A stretch of 64,000 bases of DNA from Rhodopseudomonas faecalis (lineage in GTDB: Bacteria; Pseudomonadota; Alphaproteobacteria; Rhizobiales; Xanthobacteraceae), in NCBI RefSeq assembly GCF_003217325.1, contig NZ_QJTI01000005.1:1-64000 (forward strand). The letters run 5' to 3'. This document shows, piece by piece, positions 1 through 16,555 of this stretch (positions are counted from its first letter, which is position 1; every line of letters begins with the position of its first letter). Below the pieces are notes generated by a model. It saw nothing but the letters and a program-made list of their open reading frames with translations. It was not told where the DNA came from and ran no database searches. A program made the translations under genes and the position numbers.

Positions 1-2
1 GC

Positions 3-176: not shown

Positions 177-262
177 ACAACAAGCGCGGGCATGACGAGT
201 CAATGGTAGGAGCCGTTGGTGTGAGCTGTGTCCCCGCTTGATGATCAGTCGATAACGCTTGC

Positions 263-1162: not shown

Positions 1163-1196
1163 AGCAGCCTCCAAAACAGCCGCGTGAATTATGCTT

Positions 1197-1220
1197 CTTA
1201 TTTGCTCCGGAGCAAATAAG
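1197..1220. promoter_or_regulatory. Perfect 24-bp palindrome with FixK/FNR-type core in the nosR divergent promoter
   Basis: Bases 1197-1220 are a perfect inverted repeat with 12-base arms and no spacer. The core TTGCTCCGGAGCAA fits the CRP/FNR-superfamily pattern TTG(A/C)-N6-(T/G)CAA described for FixK2-like regulators of Bradyrhizobium, and loosely fits NnrR/DNR boxes. Its centre is about 75 bases before the TTG start chosen for nosR and about 46 bases before the start of the divergent gene. A class II site here would place the nosR transcription start near 1250. Which regulator binds cannot be read from the sequence. Confidence 0.7.
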
Positions 1221-1283
1221 CGCCTTCATCGACTGCTATTGAGAGTTCGACCACGCAACGCACAACAAGCTGGAAGTGGGCCG

Positions 1284-3548
1284 TTGAGAACATTGCGCGC
1301 CATCCTGGTCCTTCTGGTTGTCGTACTGCTCGGCACTGTTGAGGCAGACGCTGCCGGCCGGCTCGACCAGTTCCTGTCGCGGGCTGCTCCGGCTGAACTG
1401 GTTCCCGGCGCCGACCGGCTTGGTTCGCTCCAAGGTGATCCCGCGATTGCGCCAGCCTATCAAGGCGATCGGCTGTTGGGGTTTGTCTATCTCAACTCAG
1501 ATTTCGCCAATTCGGTCGGCTACTCCGGTAAACCCATTCACATGTTGGTGGGCATCACGCCAGCGGGGGTGATCACTGGCCTGAAGCTGGTCGAGCACAA
1601 AGAACCGATTGTCCTGATTGGCATTCCGGAAGCCAAGATCCTCGCTGCGGCCAACAAGCTGATCGGCGCTGATATTGCTCCGGTCGTGCACGGCCGGGGG
1701 TCGGCGCCGCAGGTCGATATTGTCAGCGGCGCGACGGTGACAATGCTGGTGATCGGCGACAGCATTGTGCGTTCGGCAACCAAGCTGATCCGAAGCGCGC
1801 GGATCGGCATGGGGGCGGAACAAGTCGTAAGCACGGCCGCGCCGCCCGTCGTGAAGACGATTGATCTTGAAAGGAGCGAGATACGCGAGTGGGAGGGGCT
1901 GCTGGCCGATGGTGCCGTGCGGCGGCTGGTGCTGACCAATGCCGATGTCAATCACGCGTTCGAAGCGTCGGGCAATGCCGAAGCTGCAAGCCGGCCTGAG
2001 CCAGGCGATCCGTCGGAAACCTTCATCGAGCTGTACGCCGCTGACGTTGCCGTTCCCACGATCGGGCGCAGCCTGCTCGGTGACACCGGCTATGCGCGGC
2101 TGTCGGCGCGTCTCAAGCCGGGGCAGCAGGCGCTGGTGATCGGCGGACGCGGCAATTATTCGTTCAAAGGCTCGGGCTATGTGCGCGGCGGCATCTTCGA
2201 TCGCATCGAGCTGATCCAGGACGGCAACAGCATCCGGTTCCGAGATCATGACCACACAAGGCTCGGCGATTTCTTGGCCGCCGGTTCGCCCGACCTGCCG
2301 GAGATTGGGCTGTTCGTCATTCCCAGCGATTTCGGCTTCGATCCCGTCGAGCCCTGGTCGTTGCGGCTGTTTGTGCAGCGCGCGACTGGCGTCCGGGATA
2401 AGGCGTTTCTGACGTTCGACCTCGGCTACACGCTCCCCGACGCTTTCATCAAGCGCGAGCAGCGCGCCGTGACGGTCAGCGAACCTGCCACGCTCCAGTC
2501 GGTACCCACGGCGGCGCCGAGCGGCTCCACGGCTGCGGAACAGGCTGCATTGCCTGATCTGCCACATGAGGAAGCGCTGTGGATTCGGATCTGGCGCGGC
2601 GACGTGATCAGGATCGGGCTGCTCAGCCTCGCGCTGGGAGCGCTGACTCTGATCTTCTTCTTCCAGAACCAGTTGGTGAGGCGGCCGACGCTGTATGTGT
2701 GGGTGCGGCGCGCCTATCTGGCGTTCATTCTGGTGTGGCTCGGCTGGTACGCGAACGCTCAGCTGTCGGTGGTCAACGTCCTGACCTTCACCAATTCGCT
2801 GATCACCGGCTTTAGCTGGGAGTATTTTTTGTCGGCGCCGCTGATCTTCGTGCTGTGGGCGTCAGTGGCGGCGGCGCTGCTGTTCTGGGGCCGGGGACCG
2901 TATTGCGGTTGGCTGTGCCCATTCGGCGCGCTGCAGGAACTGCTCAACAACGCCGCGCAGGCCCTGAAGGTGCCGCAGTTCCGAGTGCCGTGGGGGCTGC
3001 ATGAACGGCTGTGGCCGATCAAATACATCGTGTTTCTCGGTCTGTTTGGATTGTCGCTCTATTCGACGGCGGCGGCCGAGCATTTCGCCGAAGTTGAGCC
3101 GTTCAAGACCTCGATCATTCTAAAATTCGCGCGCGAATGGCCATTCGTGGTGTACGCGGCGACGCTATTGTCAATCGGTCTGTTCATCGAGCGGTTCTTC
3201 TGTCGCTATCTGTGTCCGCTCGGCGCCGCGCTCGCGATCCCTGGGCGCGTCCGGATGTTCGAATGGTTGCGGCGTTGGCCGGAATGCGGCTCGCCGTGCC
3301 AGCGCTGCGCCAATGAATGTCCGGTGCAGGCCATCCACCCCCAGGGGCATATCAACGTCAATGAGTGCATCTACTGCATGCATTGTCAGGAATTGTATTT
3401 CGACGATCATCGCTGCCCGCACATGATCCAGGTGCGCCTCAAGCGCGAGAAGCGGGAAGCGCTGTCGTCGACCTCGATGCGTAGCGGCAAGGGACCGGCG
3501 ACGGTGATCGTCGGCAGCGGCAGGCAGATCCACGGACCAGAACTCTGA
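1284..3548 (+). CDS. nosR: NosR, membrane flavo-iron-sulfur protein of nitrous-oxide respiration
   Basis: NosR is the inner-membrane protein that feeds electrons to periplasmic NosZ and is needed for nos expression in some species. The 754-residue product starts with a signal/TM segment ([13 protein letters not shown]) and a periplasmic FMN-binding domain. The SGAT motif near base 1730 is the usual site of covalent FMN attachment. A multi-TM domain follows with two CxxxCP loops ([11 protein letters not shown] and [10 protein letters not shown]). The C-terminal cytoplasmic part carries two 4Fe-4S motifs ([13 protein letters not shown] and CIYCMHC..CPH). I chose TTG at 1284 because GGAAG precedes it by 7 bases. 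The longer frame from ATG 1191 lacks a ribosome site and would place the palindrome inside the gene. Confidence 0.95.
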
Positions 3549-3592
3549 AACGTCAACCACTCGCCAAGGTCGAGAAACCGGAGGAAGACGAT

Positions 3593-5527
3593 ATGAGCGA
3601 TCAGGAACAGGGCAATCCGCTCAGCCGGCGAACGCTGCTCGCCACCAGCGCCGCGGCCGGCATTGGTCTGGTCGGCGGTGCAACACTGACCTCGCGCGGC
3701 GCCATGGTGCCGACCGCCGAAGCGCAGACTAGGCCCAGTGCGCCGGCACGGGCAGCGGTGCAGAAGACCGAAGTGCATCCCGGCGAGCTCGATGAGTACT
3801 ACGTCTTTGCATCATCCGGTCAGACCGGCGAGCTGCGTATTCTCGGGCTGCCGTCGATGCGTGAGCTGATGCGTGTGCCGGTGTTTAACCGCTGCAGCGC
3901 CACGGGATGGGGGCAGACCAACGAGAGCCTCAAAGTGCTCACCGAAGGTCTGCTGCCCGAAACCCGCGAGTTCCTGAAGACCCGCGGCGGCACCTATATG
4001 AATGGCGACCTTCACCATCCGCACGTCTCGTTCACCGAGGGCACGTATGATGGTCGCTACGCCTTCATGAACGACAAGGCCAACACCCGCGTCGCCCGGG
4101 TTCGGCTCGACGTGATGAAGTGCGACAAGATCATCCAACTGCCGAACCAGCATACCGTGCACGGCCTGCGCGTGCAGAAATATCCACGCACCGGCTACGT
4201 GTTCTGCAATGGCGAAGACCGCGTGCCGGTGCCGAATGACGGCCTGAATCTCACCAAGACCAAGGATTATCACGCGATCTTCACGGCGATCGACGGCGAC
4301 ACCATGAAAGTGGCCTGGCAGGTGATGGTCGACGGCAACCTCGACAACGTCGATGCCGACTATCAAGGCAAATACGCGTTCGCCACTTGCTACAATTCGG
4401 AGGAGGGCGTCACCGCCGCCGAGATGACCGCCAATGATCAGGATTGGGTGGTGATCTTCAATCTGAAGCGGATCGAAGAAGCGGTGAAGAAAGGCGACTT
4501 CAAGGAGATCAACGGCGTGCCGGTGATCGACGGTCGCAAGGGATCGCCCTGCACGCGTTACGTGCCGGTGTCGAACAGTCCGCACGGTATCAACACCGCG
4601 CCAGACGGCATTCATGTGGTCGCCAATGGCAAGCTGTCGCCGACCGTCACTGTGATGGACGTGCGCATGTTCGACCAGTTGTTCGACGACAAGATCAAGC
4701 CGCGCGAGGTGGTGGTCGCCGAACCGGAATTGGGGCTCGGGCCGCTGCACACGGCTTATGATGGCAGGGGCAATGCCTTTACGACGCTGTTCATCGACAG
4801 CCAGGTTTGCAAGTGGAACATCGATCTGGCGCGGCGCGCCTACAAGGGCGAGAAGGTCAATCCGATCGTCGACAAGCTTGATGTGCATTACCAGCCGGGC
4901 CACAACCACACCTCCATGGGGCAAACCAAGGAGGCAGACGGCAAATGGCTGATCTCGCTGAACAAGTTCTCCAAGGACCGGTTCCTGAACGTCGGGCCGC
5001 TGAAGCCTGAGAACGATCAACTGATCGATATCTCTGGCGACAAAATGAAGCTGGTCCACGACGGACCGAGCTTTGCCGAGCCGCACGACGCCACCATCGT
5101 GCATCGTTCCAAGATCAACCCGATCTCGGTCTGGGAGCGTGCCGACCCGATGTTCGCCGACGCAGTGAAGCAGGCCAAGGCGGACGGTGTCACGCTGGAA
5201 TCCGATTCCAAGGTGGTTCGCGATGGCGACAAGGTGCGCATCTACATGACCTCGAGCGCGCCAATGTTCAGCCTCACCGAATTTCAGGTGAAGCAGGGCG
5301 AACACGTCACCGTCTATGTCACCAACATCGACTCGATCGAAGACCTGACCCATGGCTTCTCGATCGTGAACTACGGCATCCAGATGGAAGTGGCGCCGCA
5401 AGCGACCGCGTCGGTGTCATTCACCGCCGATAAGCCCGGCGTCTATTGGTACTATTGTTCGTGGTTCTGTCACGCCATGCACATGGAGATGAAAGGCCGG
5501 ATGCTGGTCGAACCGAGGACCGCCTGA
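3593..5527 (+). CDS. nosZ: NosZ, TAT-exported (clade I) nitrous-oxide reductase
   Basis: NosZ reduces N2O to N2 in the periplasm. The 644-residue protein has a twin-arginine signal ([16 protein letters not shown] at 12-13), which marks the clade I enzymes. The seven-bladed propeller carries the CuZ histidine motifs DLHHPHVS (H141, H142, H144), GHNHTSMG and EPHDAT. The C-terminal cupredoxin domain holds the CuA ligands: H587 in DLTHGF, then C622, C626, H630 and M633 in [14 protein letters not shown]. All the ligands I looked for are present, so the enzyme should be functional. GGAGGAAG lies just before the ATG. It follows nosR by 44 bases and nosD starts 3 bases after its stop. Confidence 0.98.
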
Positions 5528-5529
5528 TC

Positions 5530-6897
5530 GTGGTGACAACGATGCGCGGACTTGCGACTGCGATGGCGGCGCTGCTGGTCGGCTCGGCGGGGGGCGCAGC
5601 TTCCGCCGCGCAGATCGACGTGGTGCCGGCATCGGATCTGCAGTCCGTGCTGAATGCGGCGAATGATGACGACGTGATCAGGCTTGCACCGGGCGATTAC
5701 CTCGGTCCGATCCGCATCGAGCGCAAGCTGACGCTGATCGGCCGGGCCGGCGCTGCGGTGATCGGCCAAGGACAAGGCAGCGTCATCACCGTGGCGGCGC
5801 CCGACGTGACGGTGCGCGGGCTGACGGTGCGCGGCTCGGGACGCGATCTGCAGGCGATGGATTCCGGCATTTTCCTGATGGAAAGCGCGGAACGCGCCGT
5901 GGTGGAGGGCAACGCTATTGTGGGCAATCTCTATGGCGTCAATGTCTATGGCGCGCGCGGTGCGCGCGTCAGCGCCAACGCCATCGACGGGTTGCGCGGC
6001 CTGCGTTTGAACGAGGCCGGCAACGGCGTCAGGGTCTGGAATGCACCGGGTGTGGTGGTGGACGGCAACACTATCCGTTACGGCCGAGACGGAATTTTTT
6101 CGATCACCAGCACCAAGGATCGTTTCACCAACAACCGCTTTGAAAAGCTGCGCTTTGCTGTCCACTACATGTACACCGACGACAGCGAGGTCAGCGGCAA
6201 TGTCTCGGTCGCCAATCACGGCGGCTTCGCGATCATGTATTCCAAGCGCCTGATCATTCGCGGCAACGTGTCCGAGCGCGATCGCGACTTTGGGCTGCTG
6301 TTCAACTACGCCAACTATGCCAGCGTCGACGGCAATCTGGTTGTTGGTGGTCCGTTGTCAGGCATCAGCGCCGATTTCGATGTCACTGACAACGAGAAGG
6401 GCATGGTGCCCAAGCAGGAGGCGTCGGGCACGGCCGATATCGGGCCGGGCAAATGTGTGTTCATCTACAACAGCAACAAGGGCCGGTTTCGCGACAACTG
6501 GTTTGAGTCCTGTGGCATCGGCGTGCATCTGACGGCGGGCTCCGAAGGCAACGAGATTGCCGGCAACGCCTTCGTCGCCAATCGCAACCAGGTGAAATAT
6601 GTTGGCACCCGCGACCTTGACTGGTCGAAGGGCGGGCGCGGCAATTATTGGAGCGACAATCCCGCTTTCGATCTTAACGGCGATGGCATTGCCGACACCG
6701 CTTATCGACCGAATGATCTGGTCGACCGCGTGCTGTGGACCGCGCCAACCGCGAAACTGTTGATCAACAGCCCAGCGGTGCAGGTGCTGCGCTGGGCGCA
6801 AAGCCAGTTTCCGGCGCTGTATCCGGGCGGTGTGGTCGACACCCACCCGCTGATTTCGCCGCCCAGCAAACCTTCTGCGCGCAGGATTGAGCCATGA
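5530..6897 (+). CDS. nosD: NosD, periplasmic copper-insertion protein (beta-helix repeats)
   Basis: NosD works with the NosFY ABC transporter in assembling the CuZ centre of NosZ. The protein (about 455 residues) has a cleavable signal (MRGLATAMAALLVGSAGG... ASAAQ). It continues with a right-handed parallel beta-helix of CASH/PbH1 repeats visible as recurring G-N-x-(I/V) turns (VVEGNAIVGN, VVDGNTI, SGNVSVAN, IRGNVSER). Three starts are possible: GTG 5530, GTG 5533 and ATG 5542. GAGGA near 5515 favours the GTG codons, but ATG gives an equally good signal peptide. The frame also runs open into nosZ, which is a shadow. The end overlaps nosF by 4 bases. Confidence 0.93.
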   Translation: MVTTMRGLATAMAALLVGSAGGAASAAQIDVVPASDLQSVLNAANDDDVIRLAPGDYLGPIRIERKLTLIGRAGAAVIGQGQGSVITVAAPDVTVRGLTVRGSGRDLQAMDSGIFLMESAERAVVEGNAIVGNLYGVNVYGARGARVSANAIDGLRGLRLNEAGNGVRVWNAPGVVVDGNTIRYGRDGIFSITSTKDRFTNNRFEKLRFAVHYMYTDDSEVSGNVSVANHGGFAIMYSKRLIIRGNVSERDRDFGLLFNYANYASVDGNLVVGGPLSGISADFDVTDNEKGMVPKQEASGTADIGPGKCVFIYNSNKGRFRDNWFESCGIGVHLTAGSEGNEIAGNAFVANRNQVKYVGTRDLDWSKGGRGNYWSDNPAFDLNGDGIADTAYRPNDLVDRVLWTAPTAKLLINSPAVQVLRWAQSQFPALYPGGVVDTHPLISPPSKPSARRIEP

Positions 6898-7799
6898 GCG
6901 CGACCGTCGCATTGCATGATGTCGCCAAGAGCTATCGCGCGGTGCGCGCGCTACGTGGCGTGTCGTTCGAACTGGCGCCGGGGCGGATCAGCGCGCTGGT
7001 CGGTCACAACGGCGCCGGCAAGACCACGCTGATCAAATTGATGCTCGGGCTGATCCAGCCCGATCGCGGCACCATCAGGGTGCTGGGCGAAGATCCGGCC
7101 GCGGGTGCGTTCGCCGGTCGCCGTGCGCTCGGCTTCCTGCCGGAAAACGTCGCCTTCAACGCCGCGCTGACCGGCAAGGAAACGCTGGCGTTTTACGCGC
7201 GGCTGAAGGGCATCAATCCGCGCGATGGTGCGGCGCTGCTCGACCGGGTCGGTCTTGGCGAGGCGTCGCGTCGCCGTGTCGGCACCTATTCCAAGGGCAT
7301 GCGTCAGCGGCTCGGTCTCGCGCAGGCGCTGCTCGGGTGGCCGCGCGTATTGTTGCTCGACGAGCCGACCACAGGGCTCGATCCGGCACTGCGGCAGAGT
7401 TTTTATGACATTCTCGATGAGCTGCGCCGCGACGGCGCCACCGTGCTGATCTCGTCGCACGCGCTCCATGAACTGGAAGACCGCGCCGAGCAGGTGTTGA
7501 TCATGAATCAGGGCTCGCTGGTCGCCGACGGCACGCTGGCCGAGCTTCGGGCGCTGTCGCGATTGCCGATCCGCATGACGCTCAAGCTCGCCGAACACGT
7601 TGCGCGGCCGGATTGGATCCCCAATCACGCCGCGCTGCGCGGCGGCGCATGCGAGGTCGACATCATCGATCCCAGCGACAAGATGCGGCTGCTGCGCAAG
7701 GCCGCGGCCGATCCCGCGGTGCAGGACATTGTGGTAACCGAGCCGACGCTCGATGAACTCTACGCGCATTTTCTGCGCGCGCAGGAGCAGGCGGCATGA
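6894..7799 (+). CDS. nosF: NosF, ABC transporter ATPase for NosZ maturation
   Basis: This is the cytoplasmic ATPase partner of NosY in the NosDFY complex. The 301-residue protein has Walker A GHNGAGKTT near residue 38, ABC signature YSKGMRQRLGLAQ, Walker B VLLLDEPTTGLDP and a switch histidine in VLISSHALHELE. A C-terminal accessory domain of about 90 residues follows the nucleotide-binding domain, as in other NosF/CcmA-like ATPases. ATG overlaps the nosD stop by 4 bases, and the end overlaps nosY in the same way, so the three are translationally coupled. Confidence 0.96.
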   Translation: MSATVALHDVAKSYRAVRALRGVSFELAPGRISALVGHNGAGKTTLIKLMLGLIQPDRGTIRVLGEDPAAGAFAGRRALGFLPENVAFNAALTGKETLAFYARLKGINPRDGAALLDRVGLGEASRRRVGTYSKGMRQRLGLAQALLGWPRVLLLDEPTTGLDPALRQSFYDILDELRRDGATVLISSHALHELEDRAEQVLIMNQGSLVADGTLAELRALSRLPIRMTLKLAEHVARPDWIPNHAALRGGACEVDIIDPSDKMRLLRKAAADPAVQDIVVTEPTLDELYAHFLRAQEQAA

Positions 7800-8623
7800 G
7801 GGCGATCCTGTTCATTGCGCTCAAGGAAATCCAGGAGGGCCTGCGCAATCGCTGGGTGCTGGCGGCGACGCTGCTGCTCGCGGGACTGTCGCTGTCGCTC
7901 ACGCTGCTCGGCAGCGCGCCGACTGGGCGGATCGGAGCCTCCGCGCTCGACGTGGTGATCGTCAGCCTGTCGAGCCTGACGATCTTCCTGCTGCCGCTGA
8001 TCGCGCTGCTGATCTCACACGATGCCATCGTCGGCGAGATGGAGCGCGGCACGATGATCCTGCTGCTCAGCTATCCGGTGTCGCGCGCCCATGTGGTGCT
8101 CGGCAAATTCTGTGGCCACATCGTGATCCTCGGCTTCGCCACGCTGATCGGCTATGGCGCCGCCGCGGCAGCGTTGGTGCTATCGGGCGCAGCGATCGCG
8201 CCGGAGAGCTGGCCGGCGTTCGCCTCGATGCTCGGCACCTCGGTGCTGCTCGGCGCGGTGTTCGTCGCCATCGGTTATGCGGTGTCGAGCCTGGTTCGAC
8301 AGCGCGGCACCGCGGCTGGCATCGCGATCGGCGTCTGGCTGCTGCTGGTCTTGGTGTTCGATATGGCGCTGCTCGGCGTGCTGGTGGTTGATCAGGGGCG
8401 GCTGATCACGGCTGGCGTGCTGGATGCGCTGCTATTCCTCAACCCGACCGATTTGTATCGGCTCAGCAATCTCAGCGGCACCAATGTCAGCCAGTTCGCC
8501 GGCATGGCCGGGCTCGCCGGATCGGTCGGGCACAGTTTCGGCGTGCTGATGGCGGCGATGGTCGTGTGGATCGCACTGCCGCTCGGCCTTGCCATCGTCG
8601 CCTTTGGCCGGAGGGACTTATGA
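7796..8623 (+). CDS. nosY: NosY, ABC transporter permease for NosZ maturation
   Basis: NosY forms the membrane channel of NosDFY, which supplies sulfur and/or copper for CuZ assembly. The 275-residue protein has about six hydrophobic spans, among them WVLAATLLLAGLSLSLTLLG near residue 20, LSSLTIFLLPLIALLI, IVILGFATLIGYGAA, LLGAVFVAIGYAVSS, and a last span near MVVWIALPLGLAIVAF. The motif EMERGTMILLLSYPVSR is typical of ABC-2-type permeases. It starts inside the nosF stop (ATGA) and ends inside the nosL start. Confidence 0.95.
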   Translation: MRAILFIALKEIQEGLRNRWVLAATLLLAGLSLSLTLLGSAPTGRIGASALDVVIVSLSSLTIFLLPLIALLISHDAIVGEMERGTMILLLSYPVSRAHVVLGKFCGHIVILGFATLIGYGAAAAALVLSGAAIAPESWPAFASMLGTSVLLGAVFVAIGYAVSSLVRQRGTAAGIAIGVWLLLVLVFDMALLGVLVVDQGRLITAGVLDALLFLNPTDLYRLSNLSGTNVSQFAGMAGLAGSVGHSFGVLMAAMVVWIALPLGLAIVAFGRRDL

Positions 8624-9138
8624 AAGCTTCGATCATCGCGGCAGTTCTGCTCGCCGCTATACTCGGCGGCTGCAACGATCGCAGCGGCAGCGCGGCGATG
8701 CCGCCGCCGGTCGCGCTCAATGCCGATGCCATGGGCGTGTTCTGCGGCATGAACTTGGCCGAGCACCCGGGCCCCAAGGGCCAGATCATCACCGCAAGCC
8801 GGATCGATCCGTATTGGTTCTCGTCGGCGCGCGACGCCTTGGCGTTCACCCACATGCCGGACCAGCCGCGCGACATCAAAGCGATCTACGTCTCCGATAT
8901 GGGCCGTGCCCAAAGCTGGGATCAGCCGGGCGAGACCAACTGGATCGACGCCAAACAGGCATACTACGTCATCGAGAGCCGCAAGCAGGGCGGTATGGGT
9001 GCGGCCGAGGCGGTGCCGTTCGGGGAGCGCACCGCGGCTGACACCTTTGCCGCCGCCAATGGCGGACGGGTGGTGCGGTTTGATCAGGTTCCGCAGAGCT
9101 ATCTGCTCGGCAGCGATACGTCGACGGCCGACGATTAG
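8620..9138 (+). CDS. nosL: NosL, outer-face lipoprotein copper chaperone
   Basis: NosL is a periplasmic lipoprotein that binds Cu(I) and delivers it for NosZ maturation. The 172-residue product has a short hydrophobic leader ending in the lipobox LGGC (Cys about residue 19). It is followed by the NosL core with FCGMNLAEHPGPKGQI, where the Cys and Met are the expected copper ligands, and by SAREALAF-like and MGAAEAVPF segments. The ATG at 8620 overlaps the nosY stop (ATGA). The frame is open further upstream inside nosY, but the lipobox position fixes the start at 8620. Confidence 0.95.
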   Translation: MKASIIAAVLLAAILGGCNDRSGSAAMPPPVALNADAMGVFCGMNLAEHPGPKGQIITASRIDPYWFSSARDALAFTHMPDQPRDIKAIYVSDMGRAQSWDQPGETNWIDAKQAYYVIESRKQGGMGAAEAVPFGERTAADTFAAANGGRVVRFDQVPQSYLLGSDTSTADD

Positions 9139-9179
9139 TCGCCGGCATTCACGACGAACCATCGATTGAAGAGGCGAAC

Positions 9180-10184
9180 ATGCCACAAGCCGCCATCACC
9201 CGCCGCCGGTTCATCACCATCGCCGCATCCGGAATGGCGATCGCGGCGCTCGGCAATGTGCGTGCGGCATGGACGCGTGACATTGCGCCGATGCGTTGGC
9301 GCGGCAGCGCGCTCGGCGCGCAGGTGTCGATCGAGATCCATCATCCGGACCCGCGCGCGGCGATGGAACTGGTCGACGCCAGCGTTCACATGGTGCGGCG
9401 GTTTGAACGCCTGTTCAGCCTTTACCGGTCGGATTCGGCGATCTGCGAGCTTAATCGCAGCGGCGTGCTGATCGCCCCCGAACCGGACATGGTCGAACTG
9501 CTGCGCGCGGCGCTGCGGCTATCACAGCTCACGGACGGCGCGTTCGATCCGACAGTGCAGCCGCTGTGGCAATGCTGCGAACGGCATTTCGCGCGTGCGG
9601 GTGCCGATGCCGCGGGGCCGCCGCCGCAGGAGCTTGCCGAAGCGCTGGCGAAGGTCGGCTATGCCGGGCTGCGGGTGTCCGATGATCGTATCGCGCTGGC
9701 GCGGCGCGGCGCTTCGATCACGCTCAACGGCATCGCGCAGGGCTATGCCACCGATCGCGTGGTCGAGCTGCTGCGGCGCGGCGGACTCTCGACCACGCTG
9801 GTCGATATTGGCGAGATCCGCGCGATCGGCGCGCGGCCGGACGGCACGCCGTGGCGGATTGGCCTGGCCGATGCGGACGCCGCAGGGCGAACATTCGCCA
9901 CCATCGATCTGATCGATCGCGCGGTTGCGACCTCGTCCGGATCGGGCTTCCGTTTTGATCGCGACGGAAAGTTCAATCATCTGTTCGATCCGGCGACCGG
10001 TCGAAGTTCTGCGCGCTATCGATCGGTCAGCGTGGTCGCTGCCACTGCGACCGAGGCTGACGCGCTGTCGACGGCGTTCAGCGTCATGAGCGAGCAGCAC
10101 ATCGCCGAGCTGGTGGCGGCGCGGCCCGGGCTGGAAGTGGTGTTGTCCAATGCAGCCGGACAGCTGCGGACGCTGCGCAGCTAG
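9180..10184 (+). CDS. nosX: NosX, ApbE-family FMN transferase (TAT signal)
   Basis: NosX transfers FMN from FAD onto the threonine of NosR, making NosR competent to feed NosZ. The 334-residue protein begins with a twin-arginine signal (ITRRRFITIAASG), as expected for a periplasmic ApbE homologue. ApbE-family landmarks include SITLNGIAQGYATDRVVELL, VDIGEIRAIG, a VATSSGSGFRF segment with HLFDPATG, and EADALSTAFSVM near the C terminus, which supplies Mg-binding Asp and Ser/Thr residues. It follows nosL after 41 bases and closes the core nos operon. Confidence 0.95.
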   Translation: MPQAAITRRRFITIAASGMAIAALGNVRAAWTRDIAPMRWRGSALGAQVSIEIHHPDPRAAMELVDASVHMVRRFERLFSLYRSDSAICELNRSGVLIAPEPDMVELLRAALRLSQLTDGAFDPTVQPLWQCCERHFARAGADAAGPPPQELAEALAKVGYAGLRVSDDRIALARRGASITLNGIAQGYATDRVVELLRRGGLSTTLVDIGEIRAIGARPDGTPWRIGLADADAAGRTFATIDLIDRAVATSSGSGFRFDRDGKFNHLFDPATGRSSARYRSVSVVAATATEADALSTAFSVMSEQHIAELVAARPGLEVVLSNAAGQLRTLRS

Positions 10185-10215
10185 TTGGACGAGTGCGGTG
10201 CTCGACTGGCCGACC

Positions 10216-10671
10216 ATGTTCCGCATCATCCACGTGCTCGCCGTGGTCCATTGGATCGGTGGGCTGCTGTTTGTCACGTTCGTGCTGCTGCCGAGCCTTT
10301 CGGAATTCGAGCCGGCACGCCGGCTGCCGCTGTTCGACGCGCTGGAGCGGCGGTTCGCACGGCAGGCGAGGGTGTCGACGCTGCTCGCCGGCATCTCCGG
10401 CTTCTACATGCTGTACGCCTATGACCATTGGAGCCGGGTGCTCGACCCGCGGTTCTGGTGGCTCGGCGCCATGCTCGCGCTGTGGGCGCTATTCACGGTC
10501 ATGCTGTTCGTTGCCGAGCCGCTGGTGCTGCACAGGTGGTTCAGCGCGGCGGCGAAGCGCAATCCCGATCGCGCGTTCCGGATCGCGCTTCGTGGCCACC
10601 GCGTGCTCAGCACGGCGGCGCTGATCACCGTGCTCGGCGCGGTCGGCGGCGCGCACGGCTTGTTCTTCTGA
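10216..10671 (+). CDS. Small membrane protein, CopD/DUF2269-like
   Basis: A protein of 151 residues with four hydrophobic spans: IIHVLAVVHWIGGLLFVTFVLL, VSTLLAGISGFYML, WWLGAMLALWALFTVMLFVA and STAALITVLGAVGGAHGLFF. The opening H-x5-HWIGG...LLP pattern resembles CopD/DUF2269-type membrane proteins, whose histidines may bind heme or copper. The start is uncertain: ATG 10216 has no clear ribosome site, while GTG 10198 follows a weak GGACGAG. It lies 31 bases after nosX on the same strand, so it may be part of the nos transcript. A copper or redox role is inferred only. Confidence 0.7.
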   Translation: MFRIIHVLAVVHWIGGLLFVTFVLLPSLSEFEPARRLPLFDALERRFARQARVSTLLAGISGFYMLYAYDHWSRVLDPRFWWLGAMLALWALFTVMLFVAEPLVLHRWFSAAAKRNPDRAFRIALRGHRVLSTAALITVLGAVGGAHGLFF

Positions 10672-10771
10672 TCGTCGGCTGAGCGCGGCTTTCGTTCGGG
10701 AGCTTGCTCCAGAACAACTTGCGCTTGGCGCCGCAGGCTAATTTGTCGGCCTTGGCAGGAGCAGGGCACGC

Positions 10772-11047
10772 ATGAGCAATCAGGCCGCGAGGGTGGATGA
10801 CAGCCAGCGTTGGCATGACGTCGACGGGCTCCACATCGACGTTCGCGGCCTGCCGTGCCCGGAACCGATGGTGACGGTGCTGCGCCTGATCGATAGCGGC
10901 ACGATCGAGGGACCGCTGCTGGCGCATATCGGCCAGGAGCCGCTGCTGCTCTATCCCGAACTCGACGCGCGCGGCTGGACTTATCAGTTGATCGCCGAAA
11001 GCGACGCTGACGGCGTGGTGCTGCAGATCACGCGGGCCGCGCCATGA
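10772..11047 (+). CDS. TusA/SirA-like sulfur-carrier family protein
   Basis: A 91-residue protein with the TusA-family signature HIDVRGLPCPEPMVTVLR. The Cys29-Pro-x-Pro motif carries the persulfide in authentic TusA proteins. The second half (GPLLAHIGQEPLLLYPELDARGW) departs from classical TusA and resembles the DUF2249 relatives found beside nitric-oxide and hemerythrin genes. It overlaps the following membrane gene by 4 bases (ATGA), so the two are translationally coupled. A role as sulfur donor or as redox/metal partner of the membrane protein is inferred. It lies about 100 bases after the previous gene. Confidence 0.75.
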   Translation: MSNQAARVDDSQRWHDVDGLHIDVRGLPCPEPMVTVLRLIDSGTIEGPLLAHIGQEPLLLYPELDARGWTYQLIAESDADGVVLQITRAAP

Positions 11048-12375
11048 ATGCCGGCGCCTTTCTCGGCTCGGCCAAAAGCCGGCTGTTGCCGGCCTCGGTG
11101 CCGTTCCGGTTCTTCATCGCCGCGCAGGCCTGCCACATCCTGCTGTGGGTGGCGCTGATAGTCGCAGCCGCCGATTTTACGCGCTTTCGCGGCGGTGCCG
11201 GCCCGGCGCTCGCCACGGTGCACCTCCTGACCATCGGCGTGCTGACGCTGACGGCGATCGGCGCCGCGGTGCAACTGCTGCCGGTCGCGACAGTGAAACC
11301 GCTGGCCGCGGTGTGGCCGATCAGGCTGGCGTTTTGGCTGCTGCTGCCGGGCGTGGCGGCGCTGATTGCCGGCATGGCGATCGTCGACGTCACGCTGATG
11401 ATCGGCGGCGCGCTCGCCTGCACGCTCGGGCTCGCTTTATTCGCGGCGCTGCTCGCCGCCAATTTGCGCCGCGCCGGCAGCATGCCGGTGGTGAGCGCCT
11501 ATGGCTGGGCGGCGTTTGGATCGCTGATCCTGCTGGTCGCGCTCGGCGTCGCGCTGGCGCTCGATAACAGCTCGGGCTTCCTGTCCGATCATGCCGGTGT
11601 CGCGCTCGCTCACATGATCCTCGGCGGCTTCGGTTTCATGGGCATGCTGGCGCTCGGGTTCAGCCACATCCTGGTGCCGATGTTCGCGTTGTCGAACGCG
11701 CCCAAAACATCGCTGGCCTGGAGCGGATTTGGTGCCGCCTTGGCCGCGCTCGTGCTCGGCGTGGCTGGCGCGCTGCTCGCGGTGCATGCGCTACTGATCG
11801 CGGCCTGCATGATCGGCGTGATCGCCGCGGCGCTTCATCTGTGGCTGATGCACACCGTGCTGATGAACGGCATGCGCAAACGGCTCGGGCTGTCGTTCGT
11901 GCTGGTGCGCGTGTCTTGGGCGATGCTGGCGGTGACCCCGTTGTTTGGCGTTGCCGCCGTGCAGGGCTGGGCCGGCGATGGCGCGCCGACGCTGTTCGGG
12001 CTGATCGTGCTCGGCGGCTGGCTGACGACGTTTCTGTTCGGCGTGCTGCAACGGATTCTGCCGTTCCTGGCGTCGATGCACGTCACCCGCACGAGCGGCG
12101 GCCCGCCGCTGCTAACCGACCTCGGCGGCGCGATGCCGCTGCGCATTCACGCCGTCTGCCATCTGGCCGCGTTGGCCGGCCTCGCGGCCGCGATCGCGAT
12201 CGATAGTCCGCCGCTCGCGGCGGTCGCGGCGCTGATCGGCCTGGGCGGCGCGCTGGCGTTCGCCGCCTATGTCGCCGGCATTTTGAAGGCACTGGTCGCC
12301 GCGCCGGTGCCGCGCTCAACACACAAGGGAGCCCGTCATGTTCGCCAACCGCATCAGCCAGACCCTGCACGATGA
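11044..12375 (+). CDS. Polytopic membrane protein, NnrS/heme-copper-oxidase-like
   Basis: A 443-residue protein made almost entirely of hydrophobic segments, roughly 12 spans. It opens with PFRFFIAAQACHILLWVAL and has membrane-embedded histidines in ATVHLLTIGVLTL, LAHMILGGFGFMGMLALGFSHILVP and LHLWLMHTVLMNG. This layout, with PFRFF near the start, recalls the NnrS family and distant heme-copper oxidase subunit I relatives that occur near denitrification genes. The match is by pattern only and I cannot exclude another family. It is coupled to the TusA-like gene upstream, and its last 38 bases overlap the hemerythrin gene. NnrS is linked in the literature to nitric-oxide tolerance. Confidence 0.75.
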   Translation: MNAGAFLGSAKSRLLPASVPFRFFIAAQACHILLWVALIVAAADFTRFRGGAGPALATVHLLTIGVLTLTAIGAAVQLLPVATVKPLAAVWPIRLAFWLLLPGVAALIAGMAIVDVTLMIGGALACTLGLALFAALLAANLRRAGSMPVVSAYGWAAFGSLILLVALGVALALDNSSGFLSDHAGVALAHMILGGFGFMGMLALGFSHILVPMFALSNAPKTSLAWSGFGAALAALVLGVAGALLAVHALLIAACMIGVIAAALHLWLMHTVLMNGMRKRLGLSFVLVRVSWAMLAVTPLFGVAAVQGWAGDGAPTLFGLIVLGGWLTTFLFGVLQRILPFLASMHVTRTSGGPPLLTDLGGAMPLRIHAVCHLAALAGLAAAIAIDSPPLAAVAALIGLGGALAFAAYVAGILKALVAAPVPRSTHKGARHVRQPHQPDPAR

Positions 12376-12841
12376 GCACCGCGCCACCATCGCCTTGATG
12401 GAACGGCTCGAGCGCGCCATCACCCGCCGCCAGCCGATCGACGTCGCCGACAGCGAGGGCCGGCGGCTGTTGGACGACCTTGCGGCGGCGATCGAAGCCG
12501 ACACGCTCCGCCATTTCGATTTTGAGGAAACCGAGCTGTTCACGCTGTTCGATTCAGTTGGTGATCAGTTGATCGGCGATCACCTGACCGAGGAACACAG
12601 TTTTATGCGGCCGCTCGGCCAGCAACTGGTGACGCTGGCGCGCCGTGCCTCGGCCGGCGGCTTCGACACTGACAGCTGGCACGAGTTCAGCCGGGCCGGT
12701 GCCGAACTGGTGCAGCGCATGGTGGTGCATGTGCAGAAAGAGGAAATGGCGCTGCTGCCGCTGCTCGATCAGACGCTCGACGACGCCACCGAAGCGCGGC
12801 TGCTCGACGCTTATCTCGGCACGGCAACCCCGGCGTCTTGA
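12338..12841 (+). CDS. Hemerythrin HHE-domain protein
   Basis: A 167-residue cytoplasmic protein with a hemerythrin-like four-helix bundle that should hold a di-iron site binding O2 or NO. Likely ligands fall in TLHDEHRATI, RHFDFEETELF, HLTEEHSFM and VHVQKEEMALLPLLD. The ATG at 12338 is preceded by AAGGGAG 6 bases away, although it lies inside the end of the preceding membrane gene in another frame. Its position last in the nos-linked tail fits a role in nitric-oxide or oxygen sensing or scavenging, or in repair of iron-sulfur centres, which is inferred. Confidence 0.88.
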   Translation: MFANRISQTLHDEHRATIALMERLERAITRRQPIDVADSEGRRLLDDLAAAIEADTLRHFDFEETELFTLFDSVGDQLIGDHLTEEHSFMRPLGQQLVTLARRASAGGFDTDSWHEFSRAGAELVQRMVVHVQKEEMALLPLLDQTLDDATEARLLDAYLGTATPAS

Positions 12842-12917
12842 GGCGGTGAGACGCGCCTAAGGCATTCGCGAGCTTGCTCGATGGCTCCTGCATCGCTGTC
12901 CAGTTCGGTATCTAGTT

Positions 12918-13397
12918 TCAAGAAGGGGAACGAGGAGTCTGCGTATCGATCCGATTCCGGATCGCGTCTGCGATGTGATTGGTTGAATAAATTACCACCG
13001 AAATCAGAGCGCTGGTGAAATAGATGATTGCCGCAAGCATTATGTCCATGATGGAGCGGCTGTTGAAAGCCAATGCGAAGCAGACCACTAGAGCGACAAC
13101 ACTGACAACGACCGTGAACAGATCGCCAGATCGCGCAGCAAAGATCAGAGGCGCAAGTGCTGTCAGCAGCAGGCAAATGGCGATGGCTAGTACCGCTACA
13201 ACCGAGCCTCCATTCGAAATGGATGGCATGAGCTGCTTAGCCAAGCTCGTAATGTCAGGAGCCGGCAAGTCTCCCATATAGATCAAGCTAATATATGCTC
13301 CGATGACGATCAAAATTGTCAGGGAACCGAGCAGTTTAACGGTGAACTTCACGTATTCCATTGACCGCGGTCTCTGTCTGCTGAGGACACGCGTCAT
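12918..13397 (-). CDS. Uncharacterised small membrane protein
   Basis: A 159-residue protein with about four hydrophobic spans (LLGSLTILIVIGAYISLIYM, VVAVLAIAICLLLTALAPLIF, LFTVVVSVVALVVCFALAF, IMLAAIIYFTSALISVVIY). I recognise no family. ATG 13397 and ATG 13361 are both possible and neither has a good ribosome site. Base composition here is visibly less G+C-rich than in the surrounding genes, and codon use is correspondingly relaxed. It lies between the nos tail and the tRNA-Lys gene, so it may be cargo of an inserted segment. Function unknown. Confidence 0.55.
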   Translation of the reverse strand: MTRVLSRQRPRSMEYVKFTVKLLGSLTILIVIGAYISLIYMGDLPAPDITSLAKQLMPSISNGGSVVAVLAIAICLLLTALAPLIFAARSGDLFTVVVSVVALVVCFALAFNSRSIMDIMLAAIIYFTSALISVVIYSTNHIADAIRNRIDTQTPRSPS

Positions 13398-13549
13398 TCA
13401 ACTATAAGCTGTAAGGAAAGGAAAGGTTGGTTGTATTTTGCTTGCGGCGAAACCGCCAACTTAAATCGGTCGCAAGGATGTGGTCGCCTGAACGCCCCCG
13501 AAAACGTTCGCTTAACCCGCGATCAAAATCTTTGCGCTTGCGGTAGATA

Positions 13550-13625
13550 TGGTGAGCGCGGAGGGACTCGAACCCTCGACCCCATGATTAAAAGTCACGT
13601 GCTCTACCGCCTGAGCTACGCGCTC
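13550..13625 (-). tRNA. tRNA-Lys (anticodon TTT)
   Basis: The reverse strand folds as a full 76-base tRNA. The acceptor GAGCGCG pairs with CGCGCTC, the D arm is GCTC..GAGC, and the anticodon stem CGTGA/TCATG closes the loop CTTTTAA with anticodon TTT. The T arm is GAGGG-TTCGAGT-CCCTC, the discriminator base is A, and CCA is encoded at 13552-13550. The 3' end faces the nos block, the side where integrases normally insert. Confidence 0.96.
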
Positions 13626-13718
13626 ACGTGAGGGCTGTGTAGGGGGCGGACCGCGCCGGGTCAAGCCTGCATGCAATCCTAGCCGGACCATTTCCGCAGC
13701 CAAATTGGCCGCGAAGGC

Positions 13719-13762
13719 CACGGGCTTACAGCTTTGTCTTCACCTTTAGCTGTAAGCCGCGT
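13719..13762 (-). terminator. Hairpin downstream of ndvB
   Basis: GGCTTACAGCT (13723-13733) and AGCTGTAAGCC (13748-13758) are perfect 11-base complements around a 14-base loop. Flanking CACG/CGTG pairs extend the stem with one bulge. It lies 19 bases past the ndvB stop codon. There is no strong T-run, so it could be a weak terminator or an mRNA-stabilising hairpin. Confidence 0.5.
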
Positions 13763-13780
13763 GGAGAGATTTTCCCGTTC

Positions 13781-16555
13781 TTACCGGACGCCGTCCTTGG
13801 GCAATTCCGAGCCGACCGGCTGCCGCGCCGGAATCGCGCCCGGCAGCCCCACCGGCCGCAGGCCGATCAGTTCGGCGGTGCGGATGCCGGTATTGCGCCA
13901 GAACGCGAACGAGTTGATGCGCGAGTTTTCCAGAATCGCGATCGCCACCGCGGCCAGGAACGGCAGGCTTTGCAGCACCAGCACGCCCGCGAAGATGTAG
14001 ATCTCATGGATCTCGCGATAGGCGTTGGAAGCCAGCAGCACCGCGGCGCCGACCAGCAGCAGCACGCCGATCACCGCTTCCCAAAACGCCTGGAACTCGA
14101 CCGACATCATGGTCAGGCCGCCCTTGGAGGTGCGGGCGAAGGCGAGGTGCTCGGTGATCAGGCCCTGCGCCACCGCGCGCGACACCGTCCATTGCACCGA
14201 CATCGCCGCGATCATGGCGCCGAGCATCTGCGGCACCTTGATGGCGACCCGCAGCCGGTACAGCACCAGGAAGTGCATCAGCGTCACCACGAACGAGGCA
14301 ATGATCGGCAGCGTCAGGATTTTGTCCGGGATCGCGATGTCGGCGAACGCCACGATCGGCACCCAGATCAAATTGAGCAATGCCACCACCACGCCGATGC
14401 TTTCGGCGCCGAGCCAGTTCAGCCAGCCGAGCGCGAATTCGCGCCTCTGATCGGGCGTCAGCCGGCTGGCACCGGGCATGAACCGGCGCCAGTGCTTCTT
14501 GATGATCTGGAATCCGCCATAGGCCCAGCGATGGCGCTGCTTCTTGAACGCCTCATAGGTGTCCGGCAGCAGGCCGAAGCCGTAGCGGGTGTTGGTGTAA
14601 TGGGTGAGCCAGCCGTGCTCCATGATCTCGAGGCCGAGGTCGCTGTCCTCGCAGATGGTGTCGCTCGACCAGCCGCCGGCCATGTCCATCGCCGCGCGCC
14701 GGATCAGGCACATGGTGCCGTGCACGATGATGCCGTTGACCTCGTTGCGCTGCACCATGCCGATGTCGAAGAACCCGGCATATTCGCCGTTCATGATGTA
14801 GTGCATCAGCGAGCGGTCGCCGTCGCGATGCTCCTGCGGCGCCTGCACCAGGCCGACCCGCGGGTCGTCGAACGCCGGCACCAGGTCCTTGAGCCAGTTC
14901 GGCGTCACCACATAGTCGGCGTCGATGATGCCGATGATCTCGGCGTCGGCCGCGGTGCGCTCCATGGCGATGCGCAGCGCGCCGGCCTTAAAGCCTTGCA
15001 CCTTTTCGGCGTTGATGAATTTGAAGCGCTCGCCGAGCTCGCGGCAGTGATCCTGGATCGGCTGGGTGAAGGCCGGGTCCGGAGTGTTGTTGATGATCAC
15101 CACGCATTCGAAATTCGGGTAGTCGAGCCGCGCCAGCGCGTCGAGCGTCTGCTTCAGCATCTCCGGCGGCTCAAAATAGGCCGGGATGTGGATCGACACC
15201 TTGGGCGGCAGCGGCGCTGCGGCGGGCTCCGGCTCGGCGGCCGGTGACAGCGGCGCATCGGCAGCGTCCGTGGCGGCGAGCGACTTGATCTCGGATGGCG
15301 CGGCGGCGGCGGGCAGGGCGGCCATGTCGGCGCTGGCTTCCGGCGCCTTCCACAGCCGGCGCGGACCGCGGCCAAAGGCGATCGCGGCGATTTCCTCGAT
15401 GCGCGCCATCGCGATCAGCACCAGCGGCACCAGCAGCGTCAGGCCGAGGGTGAGCGCGAATGCCGAGCCCCAGACGAAATAGTGCCCGGTCCAATAAGCG
15501 AACACGGTCGCGACCCAGGCGCCGACGCCATTGGCGGCCGCTGACAGCAGCAGCGCCTGCATCATGGTCGGCCGGGTCAGCCGGAAGATCGGGGTGGAGA
15601 GCAGGAAGCCGACCAGCAGCGCCACGGTCGCGAGCTTCCAGTAGTCCTTGTTCACCACCGGGCCGGTCCAGTTGAACTTTGGCTCGCGGGAGGCGTTCAG
15701 GATGCCCCAGTAAGGACCGACGCCGCCTTCAAAGAACTTCCAGGGCTGATCGATCGCTTCAACGATGTTGTATTCCATGCCGACCGCTTCGGCGCGGTGC
15801 ACGAAGTTGCGCAGCGTGACCGCCTGCTCGAACGGCCCGGGCATGGCCTTCTTGAGATTATAGCCGGCGCTCGGCCAGCCGAATTCCGCGATCACAATGC
15901 GCTTGCCGGGGAAGGCGTCGCGCAGCTTCTGATAGATGATCAGCGCCTGGTCGACCGCCTGCTTGTCCGAAAAACCTTCCCAGTACGGCAGGATGTGCGC
16001 GGCGATGAAGTCGACCGAGGACGCAAGCTCGGGGTGCTCGATCCAGATGTTCCAGATTTCGCCGGTCGTGACCGGTACGTTGACCTGGCCCTTCACGCGC
16101 TGGATCAGCTTGATCAGGTCTTCGACCTTCTGCTCACCGCGGTAGATGGTTTCGTTGCCGACAACGATGCCGTTGACGTTGTTGTTGCGCTTGGACAGCT
16201 CGATCGCCGCCTGCATTTCGCGTTCGTTGCGGTCGAGATTTTTGTCGATCCAGGCGCCGACCGTGACCTTGAGGCCAACCTCATTGGCGATCGGCGGGAC
16301 CAGTTCGACGCCGCCGGTCGACGAATACAACCGGATCGCCTTGCTCATCGGCGCCAGTGTTTTCAGGTCGGAGCGGATTCGTTCGGTGGTCGGAATATTG
16401 TCGACGTCCGGGTGTCCGGTGCCGTCAAACGGCGCGTAGGACACGCTCGGCAGCACGCCTCGGAAATCAGGCGCTGGTTGCGATTCTCTGAGGAGACCCC
16501 AGAGCCCAGCGTGAACAGCGGTGACGAAGATCAGAACAGCGACGACAGCGCGCAT
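13781..16555 (-). CDS. ndvB: NdvB-type beta-glucan synthase: GH17-like domain fused to GT2 glycosyltransferase
   Basis: This large inner-membrane enzyme (924 residues, about 102 kDa) corresponds to Bradyrhizobium NdvB, which builds periplasmic cyclic beta-(1,3)/(1,6)-glucans from UDP-glucose. After a membrane anchor (MRAVVAVLIFVTAVHAGLWG) comes a GH17-like domain with GIVVGNET (acid/base Glu near 133) and IVIAEFGWPSAG (nucleophile Glu near 222). A few membrane spans follow, then a GT2 domain with VSIHIPAYFEP (about 452), IIGIIDADY (about 541), TICEDSDLG (about 635) and the processive motif QRHRW (about 675), then further C-terminal spans. I start at ATG 16555 so that the membrane anchor is N-terminal. 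ATG 16582 is also open but has no ribosome site. Confidence 0.92.
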   Translation of the reverse strand: MRAVVAVLIFVTAVHAGLWGLLRESQPAPDFRGVLPSVSYAPFDGTGHPDVDNIPTTERIRSDLKTLAPMSKAIRLYSSTGGVELVPPIANEVGLKVTVGAWIDKNLDRNEREMQAAIELSKRNNNVNGIVVGNETIYRGEQKVEDLIKLIQRVKGQVNVPVTTGEIWNIWIEHPELASSVDFIAAHILPYWEGFSDKQAVDQALIIYQKLRDAFPGKRIVIAEFGWPSAGYNLKKAMPGPFEQAVTLRNFVHRAEAVGMEYNIVEAIDQPWKFFEGGVGPYWGILNASREPKFNWTGPVVNKDYWKLATVALLVGFLLSTPIFRLTRPTMMQALLLSAAANGVGAWVATVFAYWTGHYFVWGSAFALTLGLTLLVPLVLIAMARIEEIAAIAFGRGPRRLWKAPEASADMAALPAAAAPSEIKSLAATDAADAPLSPAAEPEPAAAPLPPKVSIHIPAYFEPPEMLKQTLDALARLDYPNFECVVIINNTPDPAFTQPIQDHCRELGERFKFINAEKVQGFKAGALRIAMERTAADAEIIGIIDADYVVTPNWLKDLVPAFDDPRVGLVQAPQEHRDGDRSLMHYIMNGEYAGFFDIGMVQRNEVNGIIVHGTMCLIRRAAMDMAGGWSSDTICEDSDLGLEIMEHGWLTHYTNTRYGFGLLPDTYEAFKKQRHRWAYGGFQIIKKHWRRFMPGASRLTPDQRREFALGWLNWLGAESIGVVVALLNLIWVPIVAFADIAIPDKILTLPIIASFVVTLMHFLVLYRLRVAIKVPQMLGAMIAAMSVQWTVSRAVAQGLITEHLAFARTSKGGLTMMSVEFQAFWEAVIGVLLLVGAAVLLASNAYREIHEIYIFAGVLVLQSLPFLAAVAIAILENSRINSFAFWRNTGIRTAELIGLRPVGLPGAIPARQPVGSELPKDGVR

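Follow-up and report, generated by a model that had tools for sequence, protein, structure and literature searches.

We analysed a window of 64,000 nucleotides from Rhodopseudomonas faecalis (positions 1 to 64,000 of NZ_QJTI01000005.1, contig C5 of the 4.07 Mb genome G000), in which the nitrous oxide (N2O) reductase operon nosRZDFYLX is followed by four genes (Table 1). A preliminary description had read these as the four-gene tail of the nos operon, encoding CopD-like, TusA-like, NnrS-like and hemerythrin proteins. Their position behind nosX and shared strand hold, as do the overlaps of 4 bases (11044–11047) and 38 bases (12338–12375), the intact CPxP motif (CPEP, with Cys29) and the 12 membrane spans, which we also predict as transmembrane (TM) helices. 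Of the names, only hemerythrin is kept (Pfam PF01814); the TusA-like protein is a DUF2249 protein, and the NnrS-like and CopD-like proteins miss the cut-offs of those families. The closest named relative in our scan is Rhodopseudomonas palustris JSC-3b (locus L016), at 94% identity across the membrane protein.

Table 1. Features of the nos locus and the adjoining module in the window (HCO, heme-copper oxidase; TAT, twin-arginine translocation)
Feature	Position	Strand	Remarks
nosRZDFYLX	1191..10184	+	nosZ clade I, TAT type; nosF and nosY named by sequence and gene order
Perfect palindrome of 22 bases (TTATTTGCTCCGGAGCAAATAA), candidate nos-operon site of the Crp/Fnr family	1198..1219	.	shares TTGCTCC with the site at 10704
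nosX	9180-10184	+	upstream of the four genes
CopD/HemJ-like small membrane protein	10216..10671	+	below all family cut-offs
Crp/Fnr-type core TTG-N8-CAA (TTGCTCCAGAACAA), candidate module promoter element	10704..10717	+	68 bases before the DUF2249 start
DUF2249 protein, 91 aa, TusA-like fold	10772..11047	+	PF10006 above cut-off; CPxP Cys29 variable in the family
12-TM membrane protein, predicted HCO subunit I fold, non-canonical histidine set	11044..12375	+	AlphaFold2 model
RIC/YtfE-type di-iron hemerythrin-domain protein, 167 aa	12338..12841	+	PF01814 above cut-off
tRNA-Lys (TTT)	13550-13625	-	downstream of the module; possible integration landmark

Relatives of the membrane protein were collected by scanning genome contigs with an alignment of six sequences (the window protein and five relatives, from loci L009–L013), and the best 80 of 99 loci were examined with flanks of up to 10 kb; in the 30 loci of less than 15 kb, neighbour absences give lower bounds on presence. 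The DUF2249 gene is found in 73 of the 80 loci and the hemerythrin gene in 70, with both accompanying the membrane gene in 63. The 4-base overlap of the DUF2249 and membrane genes is conserved (40 of 51 loci measured), which suggests that the two are translationally coupled. The hemerythrin gene was placed in 58 loci and runs on the opposite strand in 15 of these, and the 38-base overlap is unconserved, with a gap of 9–18 bases between the genes in L017, L021 and L022 (script-chosen starts). Three same-genus copies (G358, G359 and G360) match as far as query residue 428–443, with one in-frame stop each. In JSC-3b the frame of the membrane gene is interrupted by a run of N, an assembly gap that does not indicate a frameshift.

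The unit, hereafter the module, is three genes, encoding the DUF2249 protein, the 12-TM HCO-fold protein and the RIC/YtfE-type hemerythrin. A single four-gene unit, as first described, was rejected on the different distribution of the CopD-like gene, which is present in only 4 of the 80 loci, all of them Rhodopseudomonas nos loci. CopD-like proteins occur in 13 of 61 genomes of the family; their gene adjoins nos or module genes only in the window genome and one same-genus genome, and no nos or module gene was detected within flanks of at most 1.5 kb per side in the other 11 (a contig end lies within the flank in G344). The window protein scores 23.9 against a cut-off of 34.2 for UPF0093 (Pfam) and 17.2 against 195 bits for CopD (NCBIfam), and its gene probably belongs to the Rhodopseudomonas nos operon and not to the module. 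As the preliminary description had supposed, no published name for the gene combination turned up in a literature search that mostly lacked subscription papers.

Genes flanking the module were called and clustered, the cluster representatives were identified, and bcr, hcr, nos and norB genes were counted by tblastn. The representatives include benzoyl-CoA reductase subunits A–D (bcr), 4-hydroxybenzoyl-CoA reductase alpha and beta subunits (hcr), a dienoyl-CoA hydratase, a YfhL-type ferredoxin and an Rrf2 regulator; the lowest identities to references are 66–70% for bcrA–D, 61% for hcrA and 48% for hcrB. The bcr genes are present in 38 of the 80 loci (two or more in 35) and hcr genes in 39, so that 53 loci carry class I benzoyl-CoA reductase or 4-hydroxybenzoyl-CoA reductase genes, the commonest neighbours. 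By comparison, nos genes occur in five loci (L016, L019, L021, L022 and L092) and norB in one (L092), and 22 loci have none of the four gene types. A nos accessory set should lie beside nosZ across genomes, and five loci of 80 do not bear this out; nor is the reading as a tail of the nos operon supported, given this count and a conserved Crp/Fnr-type site of the module's own before DUF2249. It is a self-standing three-gene set that here adjoins the nos operon.

Other neighbours are more varied. In L092 (positions 2000–11474) nnrS and two Crp/Fnr regulators precede the module, which is followed by genes for 5-aminolevulinate synthase, a bacteriohemerythrin, a norC-like cytochrome c and norB (named through its match to 4xyd, E 1.3e-221), with nosX and nosR further along. 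The module adjoins a hemN cluster member in L069, L073 and L075 (the L075 member was identified individually), and a gene for a dimethyl sulfoxide-reductase-type molybdoenzyme, scoring below its family cut-off, in L090. In the aromatic loci among L016–L095, GNAT acetyltransferases and the Rrf2 regulator are frequent neighbours, which we take to be BadL-like and BadM-like, respectively; Crp/Fnr-type genes are frequent in the aromatic clusters too.

The membrane protein has no Pfam or NCBIfam match at E ≤ 0.1, and a sequence profile of its family found no match in the PDB at E ≤ 1. Among 55 family members, three match COX1 (best E 1.4e-5) and three match NnrS (PF05940) at E ≤ 0.01 (best 0.0026). 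An AlphaFold2 model built from 55 sequences (pLDDT 92.6, pTM 0.90) has 12 TM helices, and Foldseek matched it to CcoN of the cbb3 oxidase (E 2.5e-6, TM-score 0.70) and to the cytochrome c-dependent nitric oxide reductase (cNOR; E 5.8e-5). VIA-align superposed the model on CcoN (8smr_E) with Z 35.0 and 3.0 Å over 388 aligned residues at 13% identity, and on NorB of cNOR (4xyd_A) with Z 33.3 and 3.0 Å over 377. The predicted structure is thus that of HCO subunit I, matched over the full length of the 12-TM fold at 10–13% identity.

The histidines of the two families correspond in part. Canonical HCO subunit I ligands are one His on TM2, one on TM6, two on TM7 and two on TM10. Among the 55 family members H60 (TM2), H190 (TM6) and H373 (TM11) are present in 55 and H31 (TM1) and H369 (TM11) in 53; H346, the last residue of TM10, is kept in 47, H208 in 38, H265 in 37 and H183 in 34, and no conserved His lies on TM7. 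In 20 NorB-type sequences (cNOR and quinol-dependent, qNOR-like) from the same genome set, His 53, 186, 237, 326 and 328 are invariant. Comparing the two families by profile paired TM1–4 with TM9–12 at negligible probability, so a ligand map could not be drawn from sequence; with helices matched by order and not by residue-level structure, only the TM2 and TM6 histidines correspond, while TM7 lacks its histidines, TM10 has only its terminal one, and TM1 and TM11 carry additional conserved ones. At the position four residues past H190, where NorB has a conserved Glu, six membrane-family sequences carry Gly or Ala, and, in contrast to CcoN and NorB, there is no cytochrome c subunit in the module. 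Judged by helix order, this protein probably lacks the canonical binuclear site, and its cofactors, if it has any, would differ. With NnrS the protein shares multiple spans and histidines, and NnrS adjoins the module in L092; NnrS identity was rejected for want of a PF05940 match at E ≤ 0.1 in the window protein, and a true NnrS is encoded elsewhere in the same genome.

The hemerythrin assignment is clear (PF01814, 54.2 bits against a cut-off of 25.3). The di-iron ligand pattern of RIC proteins is H, HxxxE, H, HxxxE, and H14, H59, E63, H87, H131 and E135 are invariant in 27 of 27 sequences, in keeping with the di-iron protein first described. The nearest solved structure to the hemerythrin profile is YtfE, an Fe-S repair protein (E 9e-9), with whose His and Glu ligands H59xxxE63, H87 and H131xxxE135 align; H14 falls outside the aligned stretch. 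Unlike RIC/YtfE proteins, the window protein has no other domain found in its 167 residues, and it scores far below the RIC/YtfE equivalog TIGR03652 (20.5 against 204.7 bits). A hemerythrin in BenR-, AphS- or BoxR-regulated benzoate clusters of Rhodocyclales has been suggested as a possible oxygen store or scavenger (PMC6449761).

The DUF2249 protein matches PF10006 over the whole model, 1–70 (40.9 against 29.5 bits), and falls short of TusA PF01206 (21.1 against 28.6 bits). Its predicted structure (pLDDT 80.7) has TsuB, SirA-like and TusA proteins among its top seven PDB matches at E 0.03–0.06, with none at E ≤ 0.001. The cysteine of CPxP is not a family feature: of 36 members including the window protein, the position is Cys in 9, Pro in 21 and Ala in 6, whereas H21 (30), D23 (34), H52 (29), E63 (35) and W69 (36) are better kept. 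The cysteine is present in the Rhodopseudomonas and Rhodoblastus copies, and the Rhodoblastus genomes show no nosZ. On this distribution a sulfur carrier was judged unlikely, and so was the preliminary description's supply of sulfur to the CuZ centre of NosZ. The family is known from other anaerobic settings: COG4309 is linked with nor genes (PMC1274295), DUF2249 was induced together with denitrification genes (PMC11218638, which connects DUF2249 with the HCO superfamily by citing Pei et al. 2014, Protein Sci 23:1220, on HCO-homologous families), and the DUF2249 proteins DrpA and DrpB change nar/dnr transcription in Thermus (PMC6282519). The window protein shares the Pfam family and the anaerobic or denitrification contexts of these proteins; it differs in being paired with an HCO-fold protein, mostly near aromatic reductases, whereas Rodionov 2005 reports linkage to nor. 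No paper joining DUF2249 and benzoyl-CoA was found in the literature search, which mostly lacked subscription papers.

For co-occurrence at genome level we used 50 of the 80 carrier genomes, mostly those with longer contigs (51 once G000 is added); many are metagenome bins, and absences are soft. The bcrB gene was above cut-off in 35 of the 50 carriers and clade I nosZ in 21; 7 more had lower, clade II-like or split nosZ matches above 280 bits, and nosZ was undetected in 22. Among the 51 genomes, NorB-like proteins (E ≤ 1e-20) were found in 21, NirK above cut-off in 10 and the cytochrome-d1 family (NirS, NirN or NirF; E ≤ 1e-40) in 28; 34 had NirK or a cytochrome-d1 protein and 17, G000 among them, had neither. 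By hand count, 47 of the 50 carriers have bcrB, an N-oxide gene (nosZ, norB, NirK or cytochrome-d1 family) or both, and 12 of the 15 carriers without bcrB have one or more N-oxide genes; at the thresholds used, nosZ and norB both went undetected in 16, and three (G253, G279 and G287) show neither bcrB nor any N-oxide gene. The preliminary description would be refuted by a set equally common in genomes without nos or nor genes; the 22 carriers without nosZ and the 16 without nosZ and norB go part of the way to this, but the 47 leave room for a link to nitric oxide (NO).

Two further samples put these counts against non-carriers, with relatedness ignored in all p-values. In an order sample of 249 genomes (module in 6, bcrB above cut-off in 17, clade I nosZ in 42; at least two genomes, with identical coordinates, are also in the carrier sample), bcrB was present in 5 of 6 carriers against 12 of 243 non-carriers (p = 4.6e-6), and nosZ in 4 of 6 against 38 of 243 (p = 0.008). 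G171, which has a distant paralogue (29% identity, E 1.3e-6), was excluded here; counting it would put bcrB at 5 of 7 carriers and clade I nosZ at 4 of 7. Among 16 genomes of the genus (module in 9, nosZ in 12), nosZ was present in 9 of 9 carriers against 3 of 7 non-carriers (p = 0.019), with the module near nosZ in eight carriers and on another contig in G366. The co-occurrence with nosZ that the preliminary description proposed to survey is thus seen in both samples.

DUF2249 was found in nine Rhodopseudomonas and Rhodoblastus loci, and a Crp/Fnr-type core, TTG-N8-CAA, precedes it by 65–86 bases in eight of them and by 151 in the ninth (L017). The core is present both beside nos (the window, L016, L019, L021 and L022) and away from nos (L018, L020 and L051), and in an alignment of the upstream regions of the window, L016, L018, L019, L020, L021 and L051, TTG and CAA are the sole runs of adjacent invariant columns. 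Among script-placed loci the core occurs within 120 bases upstream in 3 of 4 nos loci (excluding the window and L022), 6 of 11 other loci and 2 of 36 aromatic loci, related rows being non-independent; the observed count was reached in 0, 0 and 110 of 500 dinucleotide shuffles, respectively. The window holds 10 occurrences against 9.9 expected, so the evidence for the core is its conserved position and not the motif. The module therefore probably has an anaerobic promoter of its own, of which this core is the candidate element; its regulator may be of the NnrR, FixK or Fnr type.

The same pattern is found near the nosR start in L016, L019, L021 and L022. In the window, the palindrome near nosR is compatible with the NnrR consensus of PMC1274295; scanning the window for an NnrR-type consensus gave 40 matches against 46 expected. 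The mechanical nosR start at 1191 precedes this palindrome, and the true start probably lies downstream of it. An FNR-type pattern, TTGATNNNNATCAA, allowing at most two mismatches, has 33 matches in 1–64000 against 11.9 expected, including those at 1202 and 10704.

A tree of the membrane protein with 74 rows groups the four nos-linked rows of Rhodopseudomonas in one clade (99/88), nested within a Rhodopseudomonas and Rhodoblastus clade of 8 (100/100), which in turn sits in a 26-row clade (100/99) whose remaining 18 rows are aromatic-linked. The nos label requires two changes on this tree, the root of which was placed for drawing only. The nos-adjacent location in Rhodopseudomonas looks derived, and a location near nos would have arisen at least twice, in Rhodopseudomonas and in L092, where the nos genes are more distant.

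Few enzymes of anaerobic metabolism are as sensitive to oxygen as benzoyl-CoA reductase and N2O reductase. We propose that the module probably guards or monitors fragile anaerobic enzymes of this kind, as opposed to taking part in the building of N2O reductase. More specifically, a membrane-bound scavenger or sensor of O2 or NO, working with di-iron and DUF2249 partners, may protect labile anaerobic metalloenzymes, a reading drawn mainly from co-localisation to which we give about an even chance. The membrane protein would bind heme or another metal and catch or report O2, NO or both at the membrane; electrons or a signal would then pass to the DUF2249 and hemerythrin partners, which would scavenge the gas or repair its damage. 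Benzoyl-CoA reductase, 4-hydroxybenzoyl-CoA reductase and, in Rhodopseudomonas, NosR and NosZ would in this way be shielded should small amounts of O2 or NO reach an anaerobic cell.

We favour protection by gas handling because of the HCO fold, the complete di-iron ligands, the relation to YtfE and the aromatic reductase neighbours, together with the Crp/Fnr-type cores of stand-alone and nos loci, the NnrS and norCB-like context of L092 and the hemN neighbours. The published links of DUF2249 and COG4309 to nor and nitrate respiration (PMC1274295, PMC6282519 and PMC11218638) and the suggestion made for hemerythrin in benzoate clusters (PMC6449761) agree with it. Protection against, or sensing of, NO was already in the preliminary description, and that part survives, in that a di-iron hemerythrin and a His-bearing 12-TM protein could handle NO or O2 and the association with nosZ is supported; the reading as a tail of the nos operon and the sulfur for CuZ are not. 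A wider proposal is more tentative, and we would put it somewhat below an even chance: that an unrecognised branch of the HCO superfamily with relocated histidines, in one gene set with di-iron repair-type and TusA-fold proteins, serves oxygen-labile anaerobic enzymes as a portable guard or gas sensor, having been recruited next to class I benzoyl-CoA reductase in many Proteobacteria and next to nos in Rhodopseudomonas.

Several observations weigh against protection by gas handling. With its canonical catalytic site apparently lacking, the membrane protein is less likely to turn over gas, and the predominance of aromatic neighbours comes from a non-random sample, the best 80 of 99 loci, found with query relatives (L009–L013) that all adjoin such genes. 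In the order sample 12 of 17 bcrB genomes have no module, which is therefore inessential to benzoyl-CoA reductase. All four tested carriers from Rhodoblastus lack both bcrB and nosZ; NirK and cNOR are present in three, which a role with NO fits at least as well as one with O2, and the fourth (G253) has none of these. G000 has nosZ and its NnrS, but at the thresholds used NirK, cytochrome-d1 proteins and NorB all went undetected; it is probably an N2O-only reducer, and self-made NO from denitrification is accordingly unlikely there. DrpA is periplasmic in Thermus (PMC6282519), so the membrane side of DUF2249 is uncertain.

The strongest alternative, which we consider unlikely but serious, is that the module is a sensor and regulator: the HCO-fold protein and hemerythrin would respond to NO, to O2 or to redox state, with DUF2249 passing this on to transcription of the adjacent anaerobic genes. 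A similar role has been proposed for DrpA and DrpB in Thermus (PMC6282519). Having no conserved His on TM7 and only a terminal one on TM10, the membrane protein is a doubtful catalyst, and genes of the Rrf2 and Crp/Fnr types often adjoin the module in the aromatic clusters. The module proteins, however, have no DNA-binding or kinase domain in Pfam and NCBIfam scans, and the Crp/Fnr-type core preceding the module makes it look like a regulated gene set. Less probable again is NO detoxification, in which the HCO-fold protein would be a divergent NO reductase or NnrS-like tolerance protein working with the RIC-type hemerythrin. The match to cNOR (Z 33.3), nnrS beside the module in L092 and beside a distant homologue in L014, and the frequency of N-oxide genes (34 of 51 genomes have NirK or a cytochrome-d1 protein; 12 of 15 carriers lacking bcrB have one N-oxide gene or more) suit such a role, but TM7 without conserved His, Gly or Ala at the Glu position of NorB in six sequences, the 17 genomes, including that of the window, with neither NirK nor a cytochrome-d1 protein, and the prevalence of aromatic reductase neighbours do not. 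That the TusA-like protein supplies sulfide for CuZ during NosZ assembly is very improbable, for although the module lies behind nosX, its DUF2249 protein has a TusA-like fold and the Rhodopseudomonas and Rhodoblastus copies keep the CPxP cysteine, that residue is Cys in only 9 of 36 members (Pro in 21, Ala in 6) and is kept in Rhodoblastus genomes without nosZ, 22 of 50 carriers show no nosZ, and the module is absent from 38 of the 42 clade I nosZ genomes of the order sample.

If protection by the module is correct, a dedicated three-gene guard common to both pathways would be a testable answer to how facultative bacteria shield benzoyl-CoA reductase and N2O reductase, a non-canonical member would be added to the HCO fold, and the tempting reading of these genes as sulfur assembly for NosZ would be corrected.

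A few minor observations remain. An Rfam scan of 1–16000 gave the tRNA-Lys gene as its sole match, and a viral fold library gave nothing at E ≤ 0.001. In L017 (8396–9022), from R. pseudopalustris, the module lies beside a piece of an IS66-family transposase gene, away from nosZ by genome positions, which hints at mobility of the module. In L014 (9149–11678), from the same family, a true nnrS and a distant homologue of the membrane protein (29% identity) overlap at the 3' end of nnrS, and this pair of NnrS and HCO-fold genes is worth study in its own right.

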